Under the pieces are notes generated by a model. The model was not told the origin of the DNA and searched no databases. It saw only the letters and a program-made list of their open reading frames with translations. Below, one piece after another: positions 4,387 through 17,797 of a stretch of DNA of 64,000 nucleotides. Source of the stretch: Gemmatimonadota bacterium (GTDB lineage: Bacteria > JBHIER01 > G020348925); the NCBI GenBank assembly GCA_020348925.1, contig CP070758.1, forward strand, positions 1,669,590 through 1,733,589. The letters run 5' to 3'. How positions within the stretch are numbered: the first letter of the stretch is position 1; every line of letters begins with the position of its first letter. The translations under genes and the position numbers were made by a program.

Positions 4387-6042
4387 ATGCGAGATTATTT
4401 AACCAAGTTACTCCTCCAAGGGATCCACCGGATCGATTATATGAAAGGTGTCTCGTTGCCCCATAGTCTCATTGAAAGACCGAAGACAGATATGCACGGC
4501 GATTATGCCTCAAGCATTGCACTTGCTGTTGCCAGGCAGGTCAAGCGTTCCCCACAAAATATCGCCCGGGATATTGTCGCACACCTTCCATCCGATCCGA
4601 AATGGATTGATCAGGTGGATATTGTTGCACCGGGTTTTATCAATTTCAGATTAACCAAGCAATGGTTGTGGCATGCATTGAGAGGCATTCTCGAAGAGGG
4701 ATCGGTCTATGGCCGGGCCCATCTGGGAGGAGGCAAAAAGGTGCAGCTCGAATTTGTAAGTGCCAATCCGACAGGGCCACTCAATGTCGTCAGCGCTCGA
4801 GCCGCAGCTGTGGGTGATGCTCTGGCCCATATACTCACCTCGGTTGGCTACAGGGTAGAGAGAGAATATTATGTCAATGATGCGGGCAGACAGATGGATC
4901 TTCTGGTTGCATCGGTCGATGCTGCTTATCATCGATTGCAGGGGATAGATGTGTCTCCGCCCGAGGGTGGCTATCATGGAGACTATATTGAGGGTGTCGC
5001 CAGAAGAATCCTGGACGAGGATAATGGGAAATACGTGAACATGACGCCCCCGGAACGGCAGGCCACTTTTCGCGATCTTGTTCTCGAAAAGATACTCGAT
5101 AATCAGCGAGAATGCCTCAAACGATTTCGACTGCGCTATGATGTGTGGTTTCGTGAGCAGGAGTTACGCGAGTCCGACGCCTTGGACGATGTGTTATCAC
5201 GTCTTCGTGATGGAGGCTATGTCTACGAAAACGATGGAGCGACGTGGTTCAGATCGACGGGCTTCGGCGATGAGAAGGACCGCGTGTTGGTGACGAGTGA
5301 TGGCCACCCCACATATTTTCTGTCAGACATTGCCTATCATCGAAACAAGTTTGAGCGGGGCTTTGAATGGATCATCGATCTGTGGGGTCCGGATCATCAC
5401 GGGCATATTACAAGAATGAAGGCGGCCATGGAGGCCCTCGGATACGATCCTGGAGCCTTGGAGTTGAGAATCGTACAGCAGGTGAACCTCCTCCAAGCCG
5501 GCGAGAAGGCGAAGATGTCGAAACGGGAGGGACGGTTGGTCTCCATGGAGGCGTTCATCGAAGAGGTCGGGGTTGACGTCGCGCGGTTCTTTTTTCTCAT
5601 GCGTAAGACAAGTGCACATCTGGACTTCGATATTGATCTCGCCAAACGGCAATCCGAGGAGAACCCTGTCTATTACATCCAGTATGCCCACGCCAGAATT
5701 TGCAGCATCCTGCGCCATGCCGATGAATCGGAAGCAGGCACTGCCAGGGCTGAGGATGTCTCGATGACGCTTTTGGATACCGAGGAGGAACTTACGCTCG
5801 TCAAGAGACTACTGATGTATCCCGAGGTGATCGAGAGATGCGCCGCGAGTCTCGAACCTCAGGGTCTGACCGCGTATCTTCAGGAAGTCGCCTCGGATTT
5901 TCATCCCTTCTACCATCGTCATCGCGTCGTCACCGAAAACGGTGACTTGACCGCCGCCCGCCTCATGCTGGTTGAGGCAGTGAAACTCGTTTTAAGGAAT
6001 GGCCTGTCTTTACTCGGCATTTCTGCACCTGAAAAGATGTAG
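4387..6042 (+). CDS. argS: arginyl-tRNA synthetase
   Basis: ArgS charges tRNA-Arg with arginine using ATP. The protein has 551 residues: an N-terminal additional domain (about 1-110), the class I Rossmann core, and a DALR anticodon-binding domain at the C-terminus (about 430-551). The KMSKS motif is intact as KMSKR from residue 376. The HIGH motif is not: at the expected place after ANPTGPL, residues 133-136 read NVVS, with both histidines missing. The frame extends upstream to a TTG at 4318 overlapping rsfS. However, MRDYLTKLL at 4387 matches where family members begin. The SD is weak. Everything else supports a functional ArgRS. Confidence 0.93.
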   Translation: MRDYLTKLLLQGIHRIDYMKGVSLPHSLIERPKTDMHGDYASSIALAVARQVKRSPQNIARDIVAHLPSDPKWIDQVDIVAPGFINFRLTKQWLWHALRGILEEGSVYGRAHLGGGKKVQLEFVSANPTGPLNVVSARAAAVGDALAHILTSVGYRVEREYYVNDAGRQMDLLVASVDAAYHRLQGIDVSPPEGGYHGDYIEGVARRILDEDNGKYVNMTPPERQATFRDLVLEKILDNQRECLKRFRLRYDVWFREQELRESDALDDVLSRLRDGGYVYENDGATWFRSTGFGDEKDRVLVTSDGHPTYFLSDIAYHRNKFERGFEWIIDLWGPDHHGHITRMKAAMEALGYDPGALELRIVQQVNLLQAGEKAKMSKREGRLVSMEAFIEEVGVDVARFFFLMRKTSAHLDFDIDLAKRQSEENPVYYIQYAHARICSILRHADESEAGTARAEDVSMTLLDTEEELTLVKRLLMYPEVIERCAASLEPQGLTAYLQEVASDFHPFYHRHRVVTENGDLTAARLMLVEAVKLVLRNGLSLLGISAPEKM

Positions 6043-6053
6043 GGGAGCGATCA

Positions 6054-6962
6054 TTGAGCATTTTGGTTGTCGGTTCTGTCGCTTACGATACCATTCGTAC
6101 ACCAACCGGGGAGGTTCAGGATGCGCTCGGTGGTTCGGCCACTTATTTTTCGGCAGCTGCCAGCTTTTTTGCACCCGTGAAAATAATCGCAGCTATCGGG
6201 GATGATTTTTCAAGAGAACAGCTCTCCTTTTTGGGGGAACGCGGAACGGATTTGGATGGCTTGCACATGATGCCGGGAAAGACTTTTCGATGGACCGGTG
6301 TCTACAATGAAAACATGAACGAGCGACAAACGGTTTGTACGGAATTGAATGTGTTTGAACGCTTTCAACCGCATCTTTCCGAGGGAGAGACTCACACACC
6401 TCTTCTTTTTTTAGCCAATATCGATCCTGATCTTCAGAATCGAATTTTAGATCAAGTGCAGGGCGCGAGACTTATTATGAGCAACACCATTCATTTATGG
6501 ATCGAAAAAAAGCGGGAGACGTTTCTCAGTACGCTTGACCGGGTGACTGTCCTCATGATCAATGATTCAGAGGCGAGAGCTTTAACGGGCGAGTATAATC
6601 TGTTGAAAGCCGGCCGTAGGATTCTTCTTTTCGGACCGAAAGCGGTGCTCATAACAAAGGGTGACAACGGTGTTCTCATGGTCATGAAGGACTCCGTCTT
6701 TACCCTGCCGGCTTACCCCAAGGAGGAGGTCTGCGATCCGACCGGAGCCGGGGACTCCTTCGCCGGAGGATTTATGGGGTATGCGGCTCAAGCGAGTGCT
6801 TTGAATGAGATGACCTATCGAACGGCTGCCGTGTACGGAAGCATCATGGCCTCTTTTACAATCGAGGCCTTCGGTGTGGAGAGGCTGAGGGATCTGACCC
6901 GCCAGGAGATCGAAAAAAGATATCGGGAGTTTGTCGAGATAACACGGTTTCAGGGGGGATAA
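6054..6962 (+). CDS. PfkB-family sugar or nucleoside kinase
   Basis: A 302-residue ribokinase-fold kinase. The N-terminal glycine-rich region (ALGGSATYFSAAASFF, about residues 23-38) binds the sugar. DPTGAGDSFAGG near residue 225 contains the catalytic Asp and the anion hole. The start is TTG at 6054, with GGGAG about 7 bases upstream. The substrate cannot be read from sequence. It lies 11 bases after argS and 6 bases before the YjbQ gene, with mtnA next, so a role in methylthioribose, ribose or nucleoside salvage is a reasonable guess. It does not resemble the unrelated MtnK family. Confidence 0.85.
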   Translation: MSILVVGSVAYDTIRTPTGEVQDALGGSATYFSAAASFFAPVKIIAAIGDDFSREQLSFLGERGTDLDGLHMMPGKTFRWTGVYNENMNERQTVCTELNVFERFQPHLSEGETHTPLLFLANIDPDLQNRILDQVQGARLIMSNTIHLWIEKKRETFLSTLDRVTVLMINDSEARALTGEYNLLKAGRRILLFGPKAVLITKGDNGVLMVMKDSVFTLPAYPKEEVCDPTGAGDSFAGGFMGYAAQASALNEMTYRTAAVYGSIMASFTIEAFGVERLRDLTRQEIEKRYREFVEITRFQGG

Positions 6963-6968
6963 GAGGCG

Positions 6969-7388
6969 ATGGCTGTTTCAACACAAAAAATCATAGTTCA
7001 AACAAGGGGGAATACCGACATCGTCGATATCACAGGGCAAGTGGCCGATGCTTTGAGCACAAGTGGATTTCACAGCGGCATCCTCACCGCTTTCGTTCCG
7101 GGGGCCACAGCAGGAGTGACGACGGTTGAGTATGAGCCTGGTTTGCTCAAGGATCTCCCTGAGGCTTTCGAGAAGTTTGCACCGACCGGAGTGAGGTATC
7201 ATCATGATGATACCTGGGGTGATGGGAATGGCTCTGCTCACGTCCGATCGGCCTTGCTGGGGACGTCCTTGACCGTACCTTTTTCCGAGGGCCACATGAT
7301 TTTAGGGACGTGGCAGCAGATTGTTCTGGTCGATTTCGACAACCGTCAGAGACGTCGTGAAGTGATTGTCCAGATCGTCGGTGAGTAA
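6969..7388 (+). CDS. YjbQ/UPF0047 family protein
   Basis: A 139-residue single-domain protein of the YjbQ (UPF0047) family, some members of which have weak thiamine-phosphate synthase activity. The family signature appears as YHHDDTWGDGNGSAHVRSAL near residues 78-97, with histidines and aspartates clustered as in a metal or phosphate site. This is followed by the SLTVPF and GTWQQIVLVDFDNR segments. The length is normal. It is embedded tightly between a PfkB kinase and mtnA. The physiological role of the family is not settled, so I do not assign a reaction. Confidence 0.88.
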   Translation: MAVSTQKIIVQTRGNTDIVDITGQVADALSTSGFHSGILTAFVPGATAGVTTVEYEPGLLKDLPEAFEKFAPTGVRYHHDDTWGDGNGSAHVRSALLGTSLTVPFSEGHMILGTWQQIVLVDFDNRQRRREVIVQIVGE

Positions 7389-7399
7389 AGGAGACAGCG

Positions 7400-8455
7400 G
7401 TGGCTCGCGAGACAGAGGTGAAGACGATCGAGTGGATCGATGGGCAGGTGAGAATTATCGATCAGACACGCCTTCCGAACAGACTGGTCTATGTGATCCT
7501 TGATACCTATCCTTCTGTTCTGAAAGCCATCACTCGCCTTCAAATTCGCGGGGCACCGGCCATCGGTATTGCAGCTGCCTTTGGGATGGTTTTGGGTATG
7601 CGTGCCGCCCGGACGGAAACCTACGGGGCGTTTCGTCGGAAATTTGACCGGATAAAACGTGAGTTTCTCGAAACACGACCAACAGGGGTCAACGTGTCGA
7701 ACGCCCTCGATCGCCTGGAAAAGAGAGTGAACGGAAACCGGGATGCATCCGTTCGTGAGATTCAGGATGTGCTGCTCCAAGAGGCGCTCAGGATATATGA
7801 GGAGGATCGAACAACGTGTCGAAAAATTGGGCGGAATGGGGCGGAGCTCCTCCGGGACGGATGGGTGGTAATGACACACTGCAATGCCGGAGCTTTGGCC
7901 ACGGCTGATTATGGGACGGCACTGGGCTGTATCTATGCGGCCGTCGAAGAGGAGAAACGGATCCGTGTTTATGTCGACGAGACACGCCCTCTGCTCCAGG
8001 GGGCCCGTTTGACCGCCTGGGAGTTGCAGCGGGCCGGGATTGCTGTCACCCTCATCTGTGACAGCATGGCCGCGTGGGTTATGCAAACCAGGGAAGTGAA
8101 CTGTGTTCTCGTCGGGGCCGATCGGATCGCAGCCAATGGAGATATTGCCAATAAGATCGGAACGTACGGCTTGGCCGTTTCAGCCAAGGAACACGGCATA
8201 CCCTTTTATGTGGCTGCACCGACCGCCTCCTTCGATCTCTCTCTGGACACAGGAACCTCAATCCCTATTGAGGAGAGAGATGGATCAGAAATCACCCGGG
8301 GATTCGGCCGGCGCACGGCTCCGGAAGGTGTGCAGACGTACAATCCTGCTTTTGATGTTACCCCCGCCTCTTTCGTTACCGCCATCATCTGCGAAACCGG
8401 AATCGCGACTCCACCTTACGGCGAAAGTATCCCTCGCCTTGTGAAGACGAGATAA
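7400..8455 (+). CDS. mtnA: S-methyl-5-thioribose-1-phosphate isomerase
   Basis: MtnA isomerises methylthioribose-1-phosphate to methylthioribulose-1-phosphate in the methionine salvage pathway. The 351-residue protein belongs to the eIF2B-like family. It contains the RGAPAIGIAAAFG segment (50-62), the catalytic Cys161 in THCNAGALAT and Asp241 in VGADRIAANGD. These are the residues that separate true MtnA from eIF2B regulators. The start is GTG at 7400 behind AAGGAG. None of the later salvage enzymes (MtnB, MtnC, MtnD) are in the window. It ends the 3448-8455 gene run, and a 290-bp gap to the convergent ubiA-like gene shows no strong terminator. Confidence 0.93.
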   Translation: MARETEVKTIEWIDGQVRIIDQTRLPNRLVYVILDTYPSVLKAITRLQIRGAPAIGIAAAFGMVLGMRAARTETYGAFRRKFDRIKREFLETRPTGVNVSNALDRLEKRVNGNRDASVREIQDVLLQEALRIYEEDRTTCRKIGRNGAELLRDGWVVMTHCNAGALATADYGTALGCIYAAVEEEKRIRVYVDETRPLLQGARLTAWELQRAGIAVTLICDSMAAWVMQTREVNCVLVGADRIAANGDIANKIGTYGLAVSAKEHGIPFYVAAPTASFDLSLDTGTSIPIEERDGSEITRGFGRRTAPEGVQTYNPAFDVTPASFVTAIICETGIATPPYGESIPRLVKTR

Positions 8456-8745: not shown

Positions 8746-9630
8746 TCATGCGGCTCCCAGATAAATCGCCAGCAGCCCGATGAGCATATCCACTTTGAGA
8801 ATGAGGCTGAGGCGGCTGATGTTGGCCCGACCCGCATCGCGCCACATGGAGCGGATAATATAGAGCAAGGGCAGATCAACGCCAAGAACGACAACGACCA
8901 GGTAGGCTGTGCCGTAGATTCTGAAGAGCGCGGGGATTATGGTGGAAAGGATGAGGAGGAGGAAGAGATGTGTGCCTACAATCAGGGCGGTTCGTTCTCC
9001 ACAACGGAGGGGAAGTGTTCCCGCCTGAAAAATGGTATCACCAATACAGTCCTGAATGTCTTTGAGAATCTCGCGTCCGAAATGGAAGAGAAAAGCAAAC
9101 CAGGCCGGGATGAGGGTCGGCCCGAACCGGCCGACGGCCAGACCACCGTAGATGAAGGCCATGGCGGCAACGAGGCTGACGACGCCGTTGCCCACAAGGG
9201 CAATCCTCTTGAGTCGATGTGAGTAGAGGGTCAGGAGCAGAGACGCACACACTGCGATGATCCCTGTTTTCCAGCCCAACGCCGCCCCCAGACCCACACC
9301 CACCGCAAGAAGAATCTGCGAGAAAAGAAGAGCTCCTTTTCGAGAGACTCGGTCCGATGGGATGGGGCGTTGCGGTCGGTTGATTCGATCGATCTCGGCG
9401 TCGTAATAGTCGTTGATGGCATTCCCGCCTCCGGCAATGCACATCCCTGAGAGACAGGCGATCAGCACATGCCGAAGCGGTTCAATGCCTCCGCTGACGA
9501 AGGCCCCGATACTGATCGATGCTGCCGCGATCAAAGCGTTCCCAGGTCGGGTCAGTTCAATGTATGACGGGAGTTTTGACATTCTCAAGTCGATGGTTCC
9601 TTTCTCGGAGTCTGTGCGCCTCTGTGGCAC
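8746..9630 (-). CDS. UbiA-family prenyltransferase, archaeal DGGGP synthase-like
   Basis: This 294-residue integral membrane protein has about eight hydrophobic helices. The first aspartate-rich motif is NDYYDAEIDRINRPQRPIPS (about residues 93-112) and the second is DIQDCIGD (about 195-202). Both bind prenyl diphosphate through Mg2+. The EIDRINRPxRPIPS wording is that of geranylgeranylglycerol-phosphate geranylgeranyltransferase and of chlorophyll synthase, not of ubiquinone or menaquinone UbiA/MenA. A GTG at 9630, 6 bases after the Omp85 gene, gives the longest form; ATG at 9582 (MSKLPSYIELTRPGN) is an equally likely start. It is the last gene of the minus-strand envelope operon. The exact acceptor is inferred. 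Confidence 0.85.
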   Translation of the reverse strand: MPQRRTDSEKGTIDLRMSKLPSYIELTRPGNALIAAASISIGAFVSGGIEPLRHVLIACLSGMCIAGGGNAINDYYDAEIDRINRPQRPIPSDRVSRKGALLFSQILLAVGVGLGAALGWKTGIIAVCASLLLTLYSHRLKRIALVGNGVVSLVAAMAFIYGGLAVGRFGPTLIPAWFAFLFHFGREILKDIQDCIGDTIFQAGTLPLRCGERTALIVGTHLFLLLILSTIIPALFRIYGTAYLVVVVLGVDLPLLYIIRSMWRDAGRANISRLSLILKVDMLIGLLAIYLGAA

Positions 9631-9635
9631 AAGAA

Positions 9636-11405
9636 TTAAAATTGATTCTCCAGTCCGAAATGAATCTTGGCTTGGCTGAAGGAATCCCCTTCACCCAGCC
9701 CGAAATCGAGCCCGATAACTCCCAATCGTGATTCCACCCTGAATCCCATACCATATCCGTACTTTCTTTTGTCGATGGTCTCCAGGTGGCCGGTGTTCAC
9801 ATTGCGCTGCTCGCGGTAATACATTCCAAAGTCGAAGAACAGAAAAGCTCTGGATCTCGACGTCAAGAGGTACCGATATTCGAGGTTGGACCAGGCGACC
9901 CGAGTTCCGGAAAATTGATCCTGCCTGTATCCACGGAGTGACCGCGTTCCCCCGAGGCGGAAGTGTTCCGATATCGGGACGGGTTTTTCTCCACTCCGGA
10001 ATTCTCTACCGTGGAGGGCGGCTGCAATAACGTGTCTCGAAAAAGTAGGAATAAAATGCTCGAGATCCAAGGTGAATTTGGACGTTCTCACTTTGAACCT
10101 TTCGGCCGACGCAGAGTGCGTGGACCGGTTGCGCTTCCGCCCGTATTCCACTGAAGTGCGGTAATAGAGGCCCTGTCTTGGATTCCATGGATTGTCACGA
10201 GTATCGTAGGACGCTTGAACCCCAGCCGTGTATTTTGTGCTCCTGGCCAGGAAGGCGCCAGCCGTGGAGTCGGGCACGACCCGTTCCCAACCGAGACGTA
10301 CTCTGCTGCTGAGATTGTATCCGAGTTCGACACCGATGGTAAACCCTGCTCCTGTATAGATATAGCTGGAATCCTGATCGATTTGCTCCAGGGCCAAACC
10401 AACCCGAAAAGGCGTCCCGAAGAGCCACGGCTCTTCATACCCGAAGGCGAGGTTCGATGAGAATGGATCGCGACGATGCCATTGTGCCTCAAGCCTTCTT
10501 CCGGTTCCGAAGAGATTGGCCAGGGAAAGATCAACGAGCCCGGTCATGTAGCCCTCTTGTTGTCCTCGCGCGGGATTGTATCCGATGGCGCCATTGATCG
10601 TACTGGTCCTGCCCTCTTCGACGGTGATGACAATATTCACCGTATCTCCACGTGCGAATACAATCGAGAACGGTGACACCTTGGAGAAATAGCCCAGATG
10701 TTCAAGTCGCTTCTGAGCTGCCTCAATCTTGACCTGGTTGAAGAGTTCTCCCTTGTCGAGCCGCGCCTCTCTGAGCAAGACATAGTCCTTCGTCGTCTCA
10801 TTTCCCTCAACGACAACATCACCGATCACGACTCGCGGACCTTCGACAACGGTCAAGTTAAAATCGATGTCGTCCTCCTCGTTGATGCGAAACCGTCCCG
10901 GTTCGACCCGGCAGAACGGATAACCATTCTCCTCATACAGGCTCAAAACTCCTTCGATATCCCGCTCAAGCACTGCGGCGTTATAGGGATTCTCAGGACG
11001 GGTGTCGAACATCTCCAGCAATTGCTCATCCCGAAATTGGTTGTTTCCCGAAATGGTCAGGGTTCCGACGTTTTGTACCTGACCTTCATCGATGAGAAGA
11101 GAGACGGCCACATGCGAGCTGTCCCCATTGAATCCGAGATTTGAAATCAGCACTTCGGTCATCAGGTAACCGGCATCTTGGTAGAGTTGAAGGATTTTGA
11201 AGAGATCCTCTCGGAGGAGATTGGGGGTGAAAGGTTTTCCCGGCGCTAAGCTCATGGTCCGAAGAATGTCACGATCTGAGTAGCGCCGGTTCCCCCGAAG
11301 CGTAATAGTGTTGACCACCGTCCTTCCCTCCGCTTTGATCACACACGGAAAAACAGTCATCACTAAGAGAACAAGAACGAGACTTTGCTTGAAGTACTTT
11401 ATCAT
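9636..11405 (-). CDS. Omp85/BamA-family outer membrane protein with three POTRA domains
   Basis: The 589-residue protein has a signal peptide (about residues 1-25). Three POTRA domains follow, at about 29-107, 110-190 and 192-270, each with a G-N/V-x-G-N pattern and a D-x-G-Y or N-G-Y turn. A 16-strand-type barrel runs to the C-terminal Phe. The conserved barrel loop is present as LGGTRSLRGYRQDQF. Canonical BamA has five POTRA domains and about 800 residues. Three POTRAs match TamA-like proteins or a dedicated paralogue. It follows the 1092-residue predicted outer-membrane protein by 12 bases in the same operon, so it may insert that protein. It could instead be the general BamA of this lineage. 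Confidence 0.88.
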   Translation of the reverse strand: MIKYFKQSLVLVLLVMTVFPCVIKAEGRTVVNTITLRGNRRYSDRDILRTMSLAPGKPFTPNLLREDLFKILQLYQDAGYLMTEVLISNLGFNGDSSHVAVSLLIDEGQVQNVGTLTISGNNQFRDEQLLEMFDTRPENPYNAAVLERDIEGVLSLYEENGYPFCRVEPGRFRINEEDDIDFNLTVVEGPRVVIGDVVVEGNETTKDYVLLREARLDKGELFNQVKIEAAQKRLEHLGYFSKVSPFSIVFARGDTVNIVITVEEGRTSTINGAIGYNPARGQQEGYMTGLVDLSLANLFGTGRRLEAQWHRRDPFSSNLAFGYEEPWLFGTPFRVGLALEQIDQDSSYIYTGAGFTIGVELGYNLSSRVRLGWERVVPDSTAGAFLARSTKYTAGVQASYDTRDNPWNPRQGLYYRTSVEYGRKRNRSTHSASAERFKVRTSKFTLDLEHFIPTFSRHVIAAALHGREFRSGEKPVPISEHFRLGGTRSLRGYRQDQFSGTRVAWSNLEYRYLLTSRSRAFLFFDFGMYYREQRNVNTGHLETIDKRKYGYGMGFRVESRLGVIGLDFGLGEGDSFSQAKIHFGLENQF

Positions 11406-11417
11406 AAGGTGATACTC

Positions 11418-14400
11418 TTAAAAAAAGGCTCGCATTTCAGCTCTTCCTGAGTGAATAACCCGCCGGTCCGGTTCACTCCGGCCGGTGTACGAGATGAATG
11501 CCGTCACGTAGCGGTGCACTCGATAATCGAGGTTCAAACTCCAATCGATGTTGTTTCCGAGCTTCTTGCCACCTGCCATCGTGTAATAGAGGGCAAGGTT
11601 TTCTCGTTCCACTGACACACGGGTCCAGGATACGTCAGCCCGAACGCGACCTTTTCTCAAAATAGAGTAAGAGATGCCGGGAACAAGAGTCACGGCCCTG
11701 GAACGTTGCTCCGATTCTCGATCGATATCTCGATCGTAGTTGGTTTTCAACGAGAGCTCCAAGCGGGATTGAGGGCGGAATCCCAGGTCGGCTGAGACAC
11801 TGCTGGAGCGAATGTCGTAGGTGATCTGATCCTGGATCTGTCGCATGTTCCGCCCACTCTTGAATTCGGTCTGAAGATCGAACTGAGCTGCGATTTTCGA
11901 TCTGACTCGAACCGATGCATCCCTGCGCAGATGCTCTTCACCAAAAATCCGAGATGATCCTTGTTCCAGCAGTTGATTCTTCTCGTCACGGCTGTGTTCG
12001 TAGCGCAAACGCACGTTGAACTTCTGCCTGCGCGGGAAGAGAAAACAGTCCTGGCGAAGGGTGATGCGACCATCGACCGTGGTGCTGTCCTGTTGAAATG
12101 CGCTCAGATCGAAGAGATAGATGGCCCACTTGTCTTTCTCCTTGGATTTCTCTTCTATTTTTATCAGGGTTTCTGTTTCAATCATGCTCAGCCACTGGGC
12201 AAAGCCCGTTATGTCCCCCTTTTTTTCGGAATAATATTTGTGCGGACTGAGTTTAAGGTTTAAACTGGCTTTCAACTCAAGAACAGGTTCAAATTCTCCC
12301 ACAGTTTTCGTCCGCAGGATATAGCGGCTCTCCTGTTTCCCCGGATCGTAAACGTATTCCCCAGTCGAATCGCCGCTTTCATCCTGAAACAGTTCGAATC
12401 GATAATTCCCCCTCCATTCACCGACATCGATGAACTGACGTTCTCTCTGAGCTGCCTGGAGGCTGGAGATCTGATAGCGGAGATGGGAGGATAGGGCACG
12501 ATCCAGGGGCGTGTAATCGATCTTCAAATCCGCCAGATCCGTCGTGCGGTCGCTGCCGCCGGTCTCTAAAAAGTGTTTCATCCGTCGCGTGTATTCCGCC
12601 GAAACAGACAAGGATCGCCATTCCTTCAAGGCAAAACCCTGCCGGATGGTCTTCGATTCGGAAGCTTCCAACCAGCGTTCCTCATACGTCCAATCCTTAC
12701 GCAGGGTGAATCCGGTGTACACACCGATGGTTCTCACATCGAAGGTGGAGAGCATGCCTTCAATTTCATAGAACTTAAAACCGTCCTCTATCCTACCGAA
12801 TCGTGTGTCCTCCTTGCGCTCACCTTCAAAGCTGATATTCGGCTTGAGCTTCCAGAGAGTGTACGCGCTTCGGAGATTGTGCCTCGTCCAGTCACTCTCC
12901 AAAAGACCTGCCGAATCGGGTTGGCTGCTGTCTCTGCTGTGAATTGATTCCAGGAGATAATTTATATGCGGCAGCCCCCGTATCGCGAGATCCGTTCGTA
13001 TTTCGTCTCTCGATCCCTGAAATGCCGTCCCCCGTTCGATACGACCCAGACCGAAGCCGAAAGCGGATCTGTTGTTCGGCCGGTAGACGGCATTGAGTTC
13101 ACCCACGTTTTCCGTGCCCGGGCTGAGGTCAGAGGGCAAGTTCCAGCGCCGGTCGTATTCGGCGATCCGGATCCGCCCGACCGGTTGAAAGCGTTCCCCG
13201 AAACTTCGGTAAAAACCGGTCAGTTCGATGTTTCCGACGGTGTGATTGCCCCAGGTCAGGCGAGGGGATGTCAACGCGCCTGTGATCTTGAAGGCCTGTC
13301 CGACGTTGTCCGAATCATCCATCTCCGATAAAACATTGTTGTCCAATCGGCTGATTCCCAATTCTCCACCCAAAGCAAGACCTCCGCTCGAGTAAGTGAG
13401 ATCGAAGTCGGCCAGACTGTGACTGTGCGGCAGGGGCAGATAGACTTTTGTTGAACCGTCGTCAGCGTAGCTGAAAGCCGCTTCCGGATCGTCACCCGCA
13501 GCGCTCAATGCATCTCGGTCGATATCGGACAGGGTGATCCCAAGAGGATCGTTCTTATCATCCGCCTCATGGAAGAATGCTGCTCCTAATCGTAATTTCT
13601 CTGTAGCCGGTGCGTAAAATCCCCTGGCCGTGTAGAGGCTTCGTCTGTATTTCTCGTCAACATGCTCGAAGTCGATCACAATCCTCGATTCGACGGTGAT
13701 GAGGCGATGTCGGGTAAAGGTGATCTGCCCATTGGCATATTCGATGATATAGTCGTTGTTTTCGCCTCGTGTCATGTGCTCGCCGTCGATCCACACCCGC
13801 TCGGTCCCGGCCAGCACGATAATATCGGTCGACCCGTCATCGGCCCGGAGCTGGTACGGTCCCTGGTTGCCCTCAATTCCCGTAAAACGATTCGTCGTGA
13901 AATGGCCCTTGGAAGATGCTCCTGATACGGCCAGTTGCCCTGAGGGCCGTGTCAGCTCTCCCAGAGCACCCTGAAGTTTGCGTTCAAAACGCCCGAACTC
14001 GGTCTTCTGATAGGAGAGCGTGTAATCGCCAAAGGCGGCTCTGGCATGTTTTCCCCGAAGCTCGATGGAGACTTTATCCAACTCCTCCAGCGTCTGGGTC
14101 GTCCCCTCCGGCTGCAGAGGGCTGCTCTGGTCCGAGAGAAGGGCAATCACCTCAACATTCCGGGCGATCTGTCCGGTGATGTTCACGCGGAGCGATTGTT
14201 CCAGCGAGAGATCCCGATCAGAGCCGAGGGAGATGCCCAGGCTTTTACTCCCGCCGACTCGCAGAGAGGACATGTCCGGGAGGTCGAGTCTTCTTTGTGG
14301 AAGTTTTTTTGCAATCGTGAGTGGGCGTTGAACCGGCCCTTCGGAGCGGACGAGATGGCGATGGAGGTAGGTGCGCTTCAGCCCGATGGGCAGCCTTCGA

Positions 14401-14696
14401 TACGTGATGCGGATGGAGGTTCCAACCGGTACACTTTGAGCAAAAGTGATTTCCCCCTTGTCGACGTCGATGACGTAATCAAGATCTCGCTTCAGAAACT
14501 GTCCCTCCAGTTCGACCTTTTCGCTCTGTGCCAAAACAAAATAGTCCGGGAGAGGGTACGGGCCGCGGGTACCGTCCCCCTGCAGGACAGTCTCCTTATG
14601 ATGGAGACTCAGCCCGGTATGCTCCTGGGTCTGGAGCGGTGCAAGGGGAAGGAGGGAAATGAGAGCTATAACGTAAGCAAACCTGTGTCTCGGCAT
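11418..14696 (-). CDS. large predicted outer-membrane beta-barrel protein, unknown family
   Basis: This 1092-residue protein begins with a signal peptide (residues 1-24) and ends in RAEMRAFF. The terminal Phe is a typical signal for insertion by the BAM machinery. From about residue 350 to the end it is a long series of amphipathic strands with alternating charged and aromatic residues, and no catalytic motif. Two copies of a small module are visible, at residues 45-100 and 279-345: GPY-x-L, then VLA-x-x-E-x-V, a G-x-x-(L/M)-x-R, DY-x-I and G-x-ITF. Between them lies a segment about KSLGISLGSDRDLSLEQSLR and IELRGKHARAAFGDYTL. Its place between an NHL lipoprotein and an Omp85 protein suggests one envelope system. 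I do not recognise a named family. Confidence 0.8.
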   Translation of the reverse strand: MPRHRFAYVIALISLLPLAPLQTQEHTGLSLHHKETVLQGDGTRGPYPLPDYFVLAQSEKVELEGQFLKRDLDYVIDVDKGEITFAQSVPVGTSIRITYRRLPIGLKRTYLHRHLVRSEGPVQRPLTIAKKLPQRRLDLPDMSSLRVGGSKSLGISLGSDRDLSLEQSLRVNITGQIARNVEVIALLSDQSSPLQPEGTTQTLEELDKVSIELRGKHARAAFGDYTLSYQKTEFGRFERKLQGALGELTRPSGQLAVSGASSKGHFTTNRFTGIEGNQGPYQLRADDGSTDIIVLAGTERVWIDGEHMTRGENNDYIIEYANGQITFTRHRLITVESRIVIDFEHVDEKYRRSLYTARGFYAPATEKLRLGAAFFHEADDKNDPLGITLSDIDRDALSAAGDDPEAAFSYADDGSTKVYLPLPHSHSLADFDLTYSSGGLALGGELGISRLDNNVLSEMDDSDNVGQAFKITGALTSPRLTWGNHTVGNIELTGFYRSFGERFQPVGRIRIAEYDRRWNLPSDLSPGTENVGELNAVYRPNNRSAFGFGLGRIERGTAFQGSRDEIRTDLAIRGLPHINYLLESIHSRDSSQPDSAGLLESDWTRHNLRSAYTLWKLKPNISFEGERKEDTRFGRIEDGFKFYEIEGMLSTFDVRTIGVYTGFTLRKDWTYEERWLEASESKTIRQGFALKEWRSLSVSAEYTRRMKHFLETGGSDRTTDLADLKIDYTPLDRALSSHLRYQISSLQAAQRERQFIDVGEWRGNYRFELFQDESGDSTGEYVYDPGKQESRYILRTKTVGEFEPVLELKASLNLKLSPHKYYSEKKGDITGFAQWLSMIETETLIKIEEKSKEKDKWAIYLFDLSAFQQDSTTVDGRITLRQDCFLFPRRQKFNVRLRYEHSRDEKNQLLEQGSSRIFGEEHLRRDASVRVRSKIAAQFDLQTEFKSGRNMRQIQDQITYDIRSSSVSADLGFRPQSRLELSLKTNYDRDIDRESEQRSRAVTLVPGISYSILRKGRVRADVSWTRVSVERENLALYYTMAGGKKLGNNIDWSLNLDYRVHRYVTAFISYTGRSEPDRRVIHSGRAEMRAFF

Positions 14697-14728
14697 CGGA
14701 TTGAAACTGTCCTACCCGTGTGTTAGGC

Positions 14729-15685
14729 TCATGGAAATTCTATGGAGTATTTTTGGACACGGCCGTTCCCGGTGTCCAGAACATAGAGATGGCCGTGACG
14801 ATCGACGACCAGATCGTGAGGTGAGCGAAAGGAGCCGTAGCCGTCGCCCATGGATCCAAAGGCGAGGATCACAGTGCCTGCTCGATTGAAGGCCGCAATT
14901 CGATTGTTGCCCGTATCGGCGACAAAAACGTTTCCGTGTCCATCGAGATCAATACCCCGAGGAGCTCGAAGGACGCCTTCGCCCAAGCTGCCCTGATATT
15001 CGCCGAAGATATCGTAGGTAGCGACACGGTCGTTGCCGGAATCGCAGACGTAGACCGTGCCCTTCTGATCGACGGAGAGAGAGGTCGGAGCTCGGAGGAG
15101 ACCGCGCCCGTATCCGATGTCGCCGAAGCTCCGTTCCGGACGCTCGAAGGCATCGATTTTGAGAATTCGGTCGTTCTCCGAGTCGGACAGATACATGTCT
15201 CCGGAGGAGGAGATGTCTATGCCGCTCACCATACCGAACTGCAGCGACTCGTCCAGATTGGGATTGGGGACCAGGGTCGAGAGGTAATTGAGGTATCGGT
15301 CATAGCGCTGAAGGCGTCTGTTCTGGGAATCTGCCACGTAGATATCGAGCCCGACCGTGGCGCACAGATCGCGGGGCTCGTTAAACTGTTCCTCTTCGAA
15401 GCCGAAGCCGCCGATCTCCATCACGAAATTGCCGTCGGAATCAAACTTCTGAACGCGGTCGTTGCCCGTGTCAGCCACGTAGATGCTGCCCTCCGGATCG
15501 ACGGATATGCCCTGGGGATTGAGAAATTGGCCGGGACCGCTTCCCGGCGAGCCGATCACCTGGAGAAATCGTAATTCGAGTTGACCCTGCGCAATCTCCC
15601 TGGGTTCTTGTCCCTCGAAGCGTGTCGTCCCGCAGGAGAGGAGCAGGAGATGTATGAGGGTGCACTGAATCAAATGTTTTTGCAT
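14729..15685 (-). CDS. NHL-repeat beta-propeller lipoprotein
   Basis: The 318-residue protein has a short signal peptide ending in the lipobox LLSC (Cys18), so it should be acylated and membrane-anchored. The mature part is a six-bladed propeller of NHL repeats. Each has the pattern P-x-G-(I/L)-x-(V/L)-D-x-x-G-x-(I/V)-Y-V-A-D-(T/S)-x-N-x-R-(V/I), for example YVADTGNDRVQKF near residue 68 and VFVADTGNNRIAAF near 250. NHL propellers usually bind protein or peptide. It is the first gene of the operon, 32 bases before the 1092-residue protein, and its own promoter lies at 15741-15769. No good SD is visible before the ATG. Confidence 0.88.
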   Translation of the reverse strand: MQKHLIQCTLIHLLLLSCGTTRFEGQEPREIAQGQLELRFLQVIGSPGSGPGQFLNPQGISVDPEGSIYVADTGNDRVQKFDSDGNFVMEIGGFGFEEEQFNEPRDLCATVGLDIYVADSQNRRLQRYDRYLNYLSTLVPNPNLDESLQFGMVSGIDISSSGDMYLSDSENDRILKIDAFERPERSFGDIGYGRGLLRAPTSLSVDQKGTVYVCDSGNDRVATYDIFGEYQGSLGEGVLRAPRGIDLDGHGNVFVADTGNNRIAAFNRAGTVILAFGSMGDGYGSFRSPHDLVVDRHGHLYVLDTGNGRVQKYSIEFP

Positions 15686-15740
15686 TGGCTTTTTAAAATT
15701 GTGTCATATCTGTTTGCCTATCCGTCCATCCTTATTCCCA

Positions 15741-15769
15741 AATATAACTCTTTCATATGCTTATGTCAA
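15741..15769 (-). promoter_or_regulatory. sigma70-type promoter of the outer-membrane operon
   Basis: On the minus strand, TTGACA (15769-15764) and TATATT (15746-15741) are separated by 17 bp, an almost perfect consensus. Transcription should start near 15734, about 50 bases before the NHL lipoprotein ATG at 15685. Confidence 0.8.
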
Positions 15770-16440
15770 TCAATTACCATACATGGAAAGTGTCACCTCA
15801 GACTTGGAGTATTTCCTTTCATCTCTGATACATCTGAGGGAAGCTTAAAAAATATTGGAAACGGTGCTGGGGCAGAGACTGTGCTTTCGAAGGAGTTCTC
15901 AGGCGAGGTTCCCGAATGAAGTTCGGGCATCCGAATTCAATCGGAGCGTTTTGCCGGACCAGATCCTCCAACATGTCGAATCGCTTGAGAATGCTACTCC
16001 CCAATCGAGCGGCTGAGATTCAGATATCCTTTCAATCATTTGCGTGGAGTGTCTGATACGTTTTCTCTTTTTGCGTTGGCTGGATACATGATCAGATATT
16101 ATGTGGGGGAAGGAAAAACATGGTAATATCAGGAAATGGACTTGGGTTGAACAGTAATCAGATACCACCTGAGGCGACAGGGGGGGAGCTTTGGTGCGGG
16201 GGATTATGTACAAGACGCGATTGTGGATGTGGCTGTTCTCGGTTTGATTGACCATGTTGTTTTGGGGATTGGGGAGTGATAGGTTTTTGGGGAGGTCACA
16301 CGGTTTTCAGGTACGCCTCGTTTCATATCGGATGGCAAAAAACCTTTTGTCTCAAAAAACGTTACATCAAAATAGGAATGAATCATAGGGATTCAAATTT
16401 GAGAGCCGGCGAGACAATTATGGGGATCGAGAGAAAAATC
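15770..16440. other. 670-bp stretch without a recognised gene
   Basis: This lies between two divergent promoters. The longest frames (for example a 118-codon minus-strand frame, 15899-16255) are rich in S, R, H and rare patterns and look non-coding. I see no tRNA, known riboswitch core or clear terminator. It is the longest gene-free stretch of the window and might hold an unrecognised small RNA or regulatory region. Confidence 0.5.
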
Positions 16441-16469
16441 TTGACATATATGGAAAGACTGATTAAATT
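16441..16469 (+). promoter_or_regulatory. sigma70-type promoter for the HNH-scpAB-rpsA gene run
   Basis: TTGACA (16441-16446) and TAAATT (16464-16469) have a 17-bp spacer. The predicted start near 16476 leaves a 30-base leader that carries the SD GGAGGT (16495-16500) of the HNH gene. Confidence 0.7.
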
Positions 16470-16506
16470 TAAAAAACTTTATATCTTATGTTGTGGAGGT
16501 GTTTGT

Positions 16507-17010
16507 TTGTTAGACAGAGACGTTCTGGTTTTGAATCAGAACTATGAGCCACTCAGCGTATGCAGCGCCAAGCGGGCCATCATCTTAGTCTTTTTGGGAA
16601 AGGCGGAAATCATTGAACACCATGATTTGTCAGTACGTTCAATTTCACGGTCCTTTCCATTGCCCAGCGTGGTGCGTCTGATCCTCTATATCCAAATCCC
16701 CAGAAAAGGCGTCATCTTATCCCGAAGGAACGTGATTAAAAGGGATGGCCATAGGTGCCAGTATTGCAGCACAACCCAGGGGGCCATGACGGTGGATCAT
16801 GTTATTCCCAAAACCCTTGGAGGAAAGGACAGCTGGGACAATCTCGTGTGTGCGTGCATCGGCTGCAATAACAAGAAAGGAAATCGGACGCCGGAACAGG
16901 CACATTTGCAACTTATACGCCAGCCTCGCGTGCCCAACCGGATCACCTTTATTCAACACTTCATAGGCATTGCGGATGCTCGTTGGCGTCCGTACCTTTT
17001 TCTCAGCTGA
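16507..17010 (+). CDS. HNH endonuclease family protein
   Basis: A 167-residue protein beginning LDRDVLVLNQNYEPLSVC, typical of a widespread stand-alone HNH family. The nuclease motif spans about residues 85-125: a CQYC zinc pair, then TVDHVIPKTLGGKDSW with the catalytic His, DNLV with the central Asn, and CIGCNNKKGNRTP with the second zinc pair. The frame is open far upstream to 16276. The TTG at 16507 sits exactly 6 bases after GGAGGT and downstream of the predicted promoter, so I use it. It is followed 4 bases later by scpA. No methylase or other restriction gene is near, so a restriction role is not supported. Confidence 0.88.
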   Translation: MLDRDVLVLNQNYEPLSVCSAKRAIILVFLGKAEIIEHHDLSVRSISRSFPLPSVVRLILYIQIPRKGVILSRRNVIKRDGHRCQYCSTTQGAMTVDHVIPKTLGGKDSWDNLVCACIGCNNKKGNRTPEQAHLQLIRQPRVPNRITFIQHFIGIADARWRPYLFLS

Positions 17011-17014
17011 AACT

Positions 17015-17755
17015 ATGGAAAACAGAAGTACAGAATCACAATCCGGCTATAAGGTCCGTCTTGAAAACTTTGAGGGGCCTTTGGATCTCTTGCTCTTTTT
17101 GATTAAACAACAGGAGATAGACATCTACGATATTCCTATAGCGTCGATTACGAAGCAATATCTCGATTACATTGGGCTCATGCAATCCCTGGATCTTGAA
17201 GTGGCGGGCGAATATCTCGTCATGGCAGCGACGCTGCTTTTGATCAAGTCGAGAATGCTTCTCCCTCAGGAAATGGTCGATGAGGACGTCGAAGGGGATG
17301 ATCCACGACAGGAGCTCGTGCAAAGACTTTTGGAATATCAACAGTATAAGGAGGTTGCCACCTCCCTGTCAGACAGAGAGGAGGAACAGCGCCATGTGTT
17401 TCTAAGACAATCCTGTCCTCCTGAGGAAGAGGGGGAAGGTCTGGAAGCTTTCCAAAAGGTGACGCTCTTTGATCTGCTTTCAGCCTTTCGCCAGGCCCTG
17501 CAAAGGATCTCTGAACCGTCATTTTATCCGATCCATAGAAACGCGCTCTCGGTTGAGGACAAGATAGAGGAGATCTCGCAGCGCCTCTCGCGACAGGGGA
17601 AGATCCTCTTTGTGGATCTCCTCGCCTCCGATGCCACACGAGCTGCTCTGGTGGTGACATTTATTGCACTCTTGGAAATGATACGAAAGAGAAGCGTTAT
17701 TATCAAACAGACGAAACTCTTCGGTGATATCTGGTTGTTTCGCCCTGAGTCCTAA
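17015..17755 (+). CDS. scpA: segregation and condensation protein A
   Basis: ScpA is the kleisin that bridges the SMC heads and, with ScpB, forms the bacterial condensin. The 246-residue protein carries the N-terminal kleisin motif NFEGPLDLLLFLIKQQEIDI (about residues 17-36), the EYLVMAATLLLIKSRMLLP helix, and a C-terminal winged helix (about 170-245). The ATG at 17015 directly follows the HNH stop; an upstream in-frame ATG at 16970 would overlap the HNH gene. scpB follows after 42 bases. smc itself is not in the window. Confidence 0.94.
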   Translation: MENRSTESQSGYKVRLENFEGPLDLLLFLIKQQEIDIYDIPIASITKQYLDYIGLMQSLDLEVAGEYLVMAATLLLIKSRMLLPQEMVDEDVEGDDPRQELVQRLLEYQQYKEVATSLSDREEEQRHVFLRQSCPPEEEGEGLEAFQKVTLFDLLSAFRQALQRISEPSFYPIHRNALSVEDKIEEISQRLSRQGKILFVDLLASDATRAALVVTFIALLEMIRKRSVIIKQTKLFGDIWLFRPES

Positions 17756-17797
17756 ATAGAGAGCAGTGCTCTTCAATTTTCAGAATACGAAGCGTCC

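Follow-up and report, generated by a model that had tools for sequence, protein, structure and literature searches.

The four genes considered here lie on the minus strand, from 15685 to 8746, of a 64,000 nucleotide window of contig CP070758.1 of a Gemmatimonadota bacterium, and coordinates without a contig label are those of this window. In the order of reading they encode an NHL propeller protein, a predicted outer-membrane protein of 1092 amino acids (aa) that is here called BIG, a three-POTRA Omp85 protein and a UbiA-family prenyltransferase (Table 1). The open reading frames, strand, order and intergenic gaps of 32, 12 and 5 bases are all as given in the initial annotation, which took the four genes to be read together. 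An alternative start of the UbiA gene, an internal ATG at codon 17, is near the onset of the family-profile matches; with this start the last gap is 53 bases. The single strong promoter that was also proposed stands as far as the site itself is concerned, which is the best-scoring of the region and sits 56 bases ahead of the NHL start codon, but sigma-70 rules are unproven in this host, whose consensus may be another, and its function is not evidenced. The parts of the cluster belong to known superfamilies, and no description of BIG or its Omp85 was found in the open-access literature searched.

Predicted fold of BIG and its relation to SprA

Among giant single-chain barrels SprA, a protein connected with type 9 secretion, serves as the reference. 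The only NCBIfam match of BIG is to this family (TIGR04189), at a sub-threshold 22.5 bits against a cut-off of 200, and Pfam has no family for BIG. The AlphaFold2 model of BIG (mean pLDDT 86.6, pTM 0.76) runs from a signal peptide through a small beta domain and a low-confidence linker to transmembrane-length strands that continue up to the C-terminal phenylalanine. A second AlphaFold2 model, of an Ignavibacteria-group homologue (locus L083, approximately 29% identity), has a pLDDT of 86.1 and a strand list that matches the first one to one, the alignments behind the two models having most rows in common. Outside the inserted domain, DSSP assigns 39 long strands in both models. The number is given as about 38 because the strands of a closed barrel must be even in number if both its ends are to be periplasmic. 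Small-porin alignments generated by VIA-align span the first to the last strands of BIG, which suggests that the modelled barrel closes. BIG is very probably a giant barrel, and it is predicted to be among the largest known membrane barrels. Its N-terminal and inserted domains are mutually homologous (hhalign of sub-alignments, E 2.4e-12).

Table 1. Genes, protein domains and sites of the cluster, in order of reading; positions are those of the window.
Feature	Positions	Strand	Description
Candidate sigma-70-type promoter	15741-15769	-	TTGACA-17-TATATT, 11/12 matches, best site in 8 kb
NHL gene, first of the cluster	14729-15685	-	318 aa; signal peptide and six NHL repeats, beta-propeller; Pfam NHL, six stretches, E 7e-43
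BIG	11418-14696	-	1092 aa, giant predicted outer-membrane beta-barrel, C-terminal Phe
BIG N-terminal beta domain, residues 45-110	14367-14564	-	Shares homology with the plug-like insertion
BIG barrel region, residues 146-1092	11421-14261	-	About 38 transmembrane strands (predicted)
BIG inserted plug-like domain, residues 277-350	13647-13868	-	Between barrel strands 8 and 9 (DSSP); bears the element shared with SprA
BIG-linked Omp85	9636-11405	-	589 aa; signal peptide, three POTRA, Omp85 barrel (Pfam)
Omp85 loop-6 LRGYR motif, residues 490-494	9924-9938	-	Omp85 hallmark
UbiA-family prenyltransferase	8746-9630	-	294 aa; Pfam UbiA 1.3e-44

In Foldseek searches with the first BIG model the top four PDB matches are all SprA (E 6e-12 to 5e-10), and SprA is likewise ranked first for the second model. 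The global TM-scores do not exceed 0.3, as expected for barrels that differ in size and have long loops. VIA-align matches SprA (8GL6) with the second model from end to end (700 residues, Z 14.7, rmsd 8.4). When BIG was compared using hhalign with an alignment of 21 SprA sequences, drawn from BIG-positive and other genomes, the match was significant over most of the length of the protein (probability 96.9, E 1e-10, 939–967 columns); the controls, which were reversed SprA, column-shuffled SprA and Omp85, gave probabilities of 0.8 at most. Compared with the SprA of its own genome, BIG matches over the inserted plug-like domain (E 4e-7). A BIG-profile sequence search of solved structures returned chance matches only. 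It is highly likely that BIG is a remote homologue of SprA, and the initial description of a large protein without known family has to be revised in view of these profile and structure matches, although there is no Pfam family.

BIG should not itself be seen as a SprA, since it is below the family cut-off, has no match to SprA_N (PF14349) at E values up to 1, and is encoded in a genome with a true, full-length SprA elsewhere (1992 aa, matching SprA_N at 2e-44). SprA is, and BIG is predicted to be, a giant single-chain outer-membrane barrel; the two have a common beta-domain element, and their phyletic distributions overlap, with SprA present in 52 out of 56 BIG genomes. BIG is however half the length of SprA proteins, which are of approximately 2000–2400 aa, and its predicted 38 or so strands compare with 36 in the SprA barrel (PMC10994853). 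Divergent short BIG-like open reading frames (968 and 954 aa) are present at G088:C1:667533-670298 and G229:C6:96306-96896, in two genomes whose SprA scores above 1100 bits. BIG may extend further into lineages bearing the type 9 secretion system than strict counts show.

Co-occurrence of BIG with one clade of Omp85

Homologues of BIG were confirmed at at least 577 places in named genomes, and BIG with its neighbours is spread over many bacterial phyla. Among the matches listed, most are from the Fibrobacteres–Chlorobi–Bacteroidetes (FCB) superphylum, the relatives being mostly in candidate division KSB1, Calditrichota, Latescibacterota, Ignavibacteria and other FCB lineages. A single-sequence search identified homologues in 14 of 59 sampled genomes, its weakest matches being to SprA-like proteins. 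An Omp85 gene is downstream of BIG in 23 out of 34 loci from the group of KSB1, Calditrichota and others, and in 0 out of 28 from the group of Ignavibacteria and Bacteroidota. The initial annotation had pointed to gene order in related genomes as the check on its proposal; the order NHL-BIG-Omp85 recurs across many lineages, and 40 further loci chosen around BIG or the clade of Omp85 described below have this order in most linked cases.

A maximum-likelihood tree places the Omp85 proteins adjacent to BIG on one side of a 100/100 branch, away from BamA, TamA1, TamA2 and patatin-Omp85. Only two Omp85 proteins that are not adjacent to BIG are on this side. Their sources are G053 and G003, which among the seven genomes analysed are the two that have a BIG without an Omp85 beside it. 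Likewise, all 18 genomes searched that carry a solo BIG encode one full-length clade Omp85 elsewhere (339–671 bits), while the runner-up Omp85 in any of them does not exceed 134.5 bits. With a clade threshold of 225 bits, which was set after the scores had been seen, a sample of 290 genomes contains 40 with both the clade Omp85 and BIG, 16 with BIG only and a single one with the Omp85 only. The latter (G117) is a draft genome, 84% complete, whose family also includes a BIG-positive genome. The two genes are adjacent in 26 of the 40 co-occurring pairs and apart in the remaining 14, and the pairing holds across different contigs.

BIG has an Omp85 of its own. Within SprA-positive genomes the pairing persists (37/15/1/14 for both, BIG only, Omp85 only and neither; p 9e-6 in a Fisher test that ignores ancestry), and 14 of the 15 SprA genomes without BIG are also without the clade Omp85. 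The clade Omp85 thus follows BIG and not SprA, and the reading in which it tracks SprA instead was rejected. An Omp85 with one large substrate had been interpreted as a dedicated pair, and this is supported by the unlinked pairing and by the presence of BIG in 40 of the 41 genomes with a clade Omp85. BIG and the clade Omp85 can be regarded with high confidence as a functional pair, and it is fairly likely that the Omp85 is the assembly factor of BIG.

The three POTRA domains of the cluster Omp85, previously read from the sequence, are found by Pfam together with the Omp85 barrel (PF01103), and all 26 clade members have the loop-6 motif in the form L/V/M-R-G-Y/F. Both barrel-type proteins end in phenylalanine, as had been noted, and so do 62 of 75 aligned BIG and 26 of 26 clade Omp85 sequences. 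The best NCBIfam match of the cluster Omp85 is BamA, with weak matches also to the ShlB and POTRA_2 profiles. POTRA repeats, an Omp85 barrel and the L6 LRGY motif are shared with BamA and TamA (PMC4104836). The cluster Omp85 differs from these in belonging to a separate clade with three POTRA domains, in having no adjoining TamB and in a phyletic pattern that follows BIG; the BamA and two TamA of the genome are other genes. Among 13 Omp85-family matches in this genome (5.04 Mb, single contig) there is a separate BamA with five POTRA domains, encoded beside skp, for which a search had been suggested initially. The cluster Omp85 is therefore not the sole BamA of the genome, and the tree separates the two. 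Of the two outcomes named in the initial annotation as refuting it, a sole BamA with freely varying neighbours and no co-occurrence in related genomes, neither was obtained. Nor is the cluster Omp85 a TamA, since both three-POTRA TamA proteins are encoded elsewhere, each beside TamB (loci L132 and L133), and are set apart from it by the 100/100 branch. The genome also encodes a patatin-Omp85.

At locus L269 (G282:C52) a clade Omp85 gene not linked to BIG (5484-7235) is approximately 4 kb from a SprA gene (11465-17797) on the same contig. In several Ignavibacteria the start of the unlinked clade Omp85 is overlapped by a gene for a PfkB kinase; a conserved propeller had been considered for this position and was rejected on the identity of the overlapping gene. 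Genes for a PfkB-type kinase (6054-6962) and MtnA (7400-8455) adjoin the present cluster in convergent orientation, and both families also follow BIG in many Ignavibacteria loci.

The NHL propeller and the UbiA-family enzyme

An NHL homologue is directly upstream of BIG in 33 out of 44 loci from the group of KSB1, Calditrichota and others, and in 2 out of 31 from the group of Ignavibacteria and Bacteroidota. It stays beside BIG at loci without an Omp85, such as L073, L091, L109 and L281. The linkage of the propeller is to BIG, therefore, and persists even without Omp85. The initial annotation described it as a surface lipoprotein. A candidate lipobox, LLSC, is present in the cluster protein, but such a candidate is seen in only two to three others of approximately 45 homologues, most of them carrying ordinary signal peptides. 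A conserved surface lipoprotein is thereby not supported; the propeller probably resides in the periplasm and is not, as a rule, a lipoprotein. Like BamB, it is a propeller protein encoded alongside an Omp85, and a periplasmic role is proposed for it. BamB is however an eight-bladed PQQ-type propeller lipoprotein, whereas the protein of the cluster is a six-repeat NHL propeller whose linkage is to BIG and not to the Omp85, and whose lipobox is not conserved. Pfam and NCBIfam scans gave no match of this protein to the BamB family, and found the six NHL repeats instead.

Of 80 loci with the clade Omp85, a few of which repeat a genome, 17 have a UbiA gene within 1.5 kb after the Omp85 gene. The Omp85 is beside BIG in 48 of the loci, with UbiA in 10, and apart from BIG in 32, with UbiA in 7; the linkage of UbiA is to the Omp85, even without BIG. 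Each of the neighbour links is retained where the others are missing. The earlier inclusion of the enzyme in the system is upheld in that the linkage is real, but this linkage is partial, and a direct role of UbiA in the system is doubtful.

The enzyme had been called archaeal-type, which agrees with its closest models. For six out of six UbiA proteins tested the best-scoring models are those of archaeal-type DGGGP synthase and related prenyltransferases, with scores short of the equivalog cut-offs; the protein of the cluster reaches 222 bits against a cut-off of 296 for geranylgeranylglycerol-phosphate geranylgeranyltransferase (NCBIfam). Its motifs N73DYYDAEID81 and D191IQDCIGD198 are intact as read from the sequence. 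Two further UbiA proteins are encoded in the genome, as is a PcrB/GGGP synthase homologue (G000:C1:1965805-1966464, 150 bits); together with the DGGGP synthase-like UbiA, this homologue would provide the potential for archaeal-type ether lipids. The UbiA fold, both Asp-rich motifs, the best NCBIfam matches and the PcrB/GGGP synthase homologue are points of likeness to archaeal DGGGP synthase and the FCB ether-lipid genes (PMC7852524). The cluster UbiA differs in being under the equivalog cut-offs and within an outer-membrane assembly cluster.

Proposed function and alternative explanations

The fold of BIG, its remote SprA homology and its near-obligate pairing with one Omp85 clade are computational results. 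On balance, the reading favoured for the cluster as a whole is a SprA-type outer-membrane conduit, with a private Omp85 that assembles BIG and a propeller as periplasmic partner. BIG would form a giant barrel of the SprA type from about 38 strands, its N-terminal domain lying in the periplasm and the homologous plug domain in or under the pore. The three-POTRA Omp85 would fold and insert it, as the general beta-barrel assembly machinery (BAM) may handle so large a barrel poorly. The NHL propeller would act in the periplasm on the BIG side as a chaperone, docking or gating subunit, comparable to BamB with BamA or to the periplasmic subunits of SprA. In SprA, proteins pass via a capped pore with a lateral opening (PMC10994853), and BIG may similarly carry large cargo, most likely proteins, over the outer membrane. 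That BIG is a protein translocon comes close to an even possibility. An undescribed FCB-wide export system, in which a SprA-related channel of about 38 strands would have its own plug, a periplasmic NHL propeller and an Omp85 private to the one barrel, is proposed tentatively. UbiA is the least certain part, and would probably make a prenylated lipid, of archaeal-type ether or related kind, co-regulated with outer-membrane assembly.

Several points weigh against this reading. The strand count of BIG is approximate, and the closure of the predicted barrel is judged from the porin alignments. BIG is without SprA_N and half as long as SprA, hence its cargo and partners may differ. The 225-bit line for the clade Omp85 sits in a small gap, between 227 and 204 bits, and 16 BIG genomes are under it, several with a strongly diverged BIG and some with an adjacent diverged Omp85. 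Co-occurrence is in part shared FCB ancestry, and Fisher p-values ignore phylogeny. Lastly, NHL and UbiA are missing from most Ignavibacteria BIG loci.

Shared ancestry could be the whole explanation if the cluster were an ancestral FCB envelope neighbourhood without common function, its co-occurrence mirroring lineage only. The presence of BIG and SprA in the same lineages is what this would give, and the genes beyond the cluster are housekeeping genes. It is nonetheless improbable, given that the Omp85 accompanies BIG even when unlinked, is missing in nearly all SprA-positive, BIG-negative genomes, and that each neighbour link holds without the others. It is still less probable that the clade Omp85 is an active secretion pore of the two-partner type, with BIG as its surface product or receptor. 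The layout of an Omp85 beside one large substrate is that of TpsB and TpsA, and the weak ShlB and POTRA_2 matches fit, but TpsB has two POTRA domains and secretes a TpsA beta-helix. Here there are three, the best match is BamA, and the partner is a predicted membrane barrel with a C-terminal phenylalanine.

Two other roles for BIG have been considered. It could with its Omp85 export a lipid or glycan, as an LptD-like conduit for a prenyl-linked product, with UbiA acting in the precursor and the propeller as a periplasmic shuttle or clamp. In favour of this are the linkage of UbiA to the clade Omp85, seen in several lineages and also where BIG is not a neighbour, the GGGP synthase-like PcrB gene and the LptD structures among the Foldseek matches of the BIG models. 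This is unlikely, however, as SprA scores better than LptD in those searches, the cluster is without a transport ATPase or bridge protein, and roughly four in five loci have no UbiA. The genome also has its own LptD, for which reason BIG as an LptD replacement was rejected. The remaining possibility, an usher-like or adhesin-assembly platform in which the first approximately 24 strands and the plug act like FimD, comes from VIA-align. For both models it places FimD first (Z 17.9 and 17.8, approximately 340–350 residues), ushers are slightly above SprA over the first 24 BIG strands, and the plug-like domain is inserted near the barrel start. The barrel-protein rows score close together, though, and SprA leads in Foldseek and aligns over the full length of the barrel model. 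BIG has approximately 14 extra strands and no usher match in Pfam, the similarity to FimD and PapC being structural only, and no chaperone-pilin genes were seen adjoining the cluster. An usher role is therefore extremely improbable.

A SprA-type conduit with a private Omp85 can be compared with the Bacteroidota BAM complex, which is reported to be enlarged with BamG, BamH and BamP, perhaps for complex clients (PMC12611786). Common to the two would be that FCB bacteria add components for the assembly of outer-membrane proteins, plausibly on account of large and complex clients such as SprA and SusCD. The added subunits are there joined to BamA itself, whereas the present cluster apparently devotes a second Omp85 to a single giant barrel. 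Neither BIG nor the clade Omp85 turned up in the passages of that study that were consulted. An Omp85 kept for a second giant barrel alone would be in line with this enlargement of BAM in the Bacteroidota.

If the proposed reading is true, a second, distinct SprA-type barrel would be present across many FCB lineages and add a transport route, and in the clade Omp85 these bacteria would have an uncommon example of an Omp85 paralogue that serves a single giant client. Since the named matches of BIG include Ignavibacterium, Melioribacter and Caldithrix, which are genera with cultured members, experiments are possible, and the insertion of barrels more than twice the size of BamA would become directly testable.

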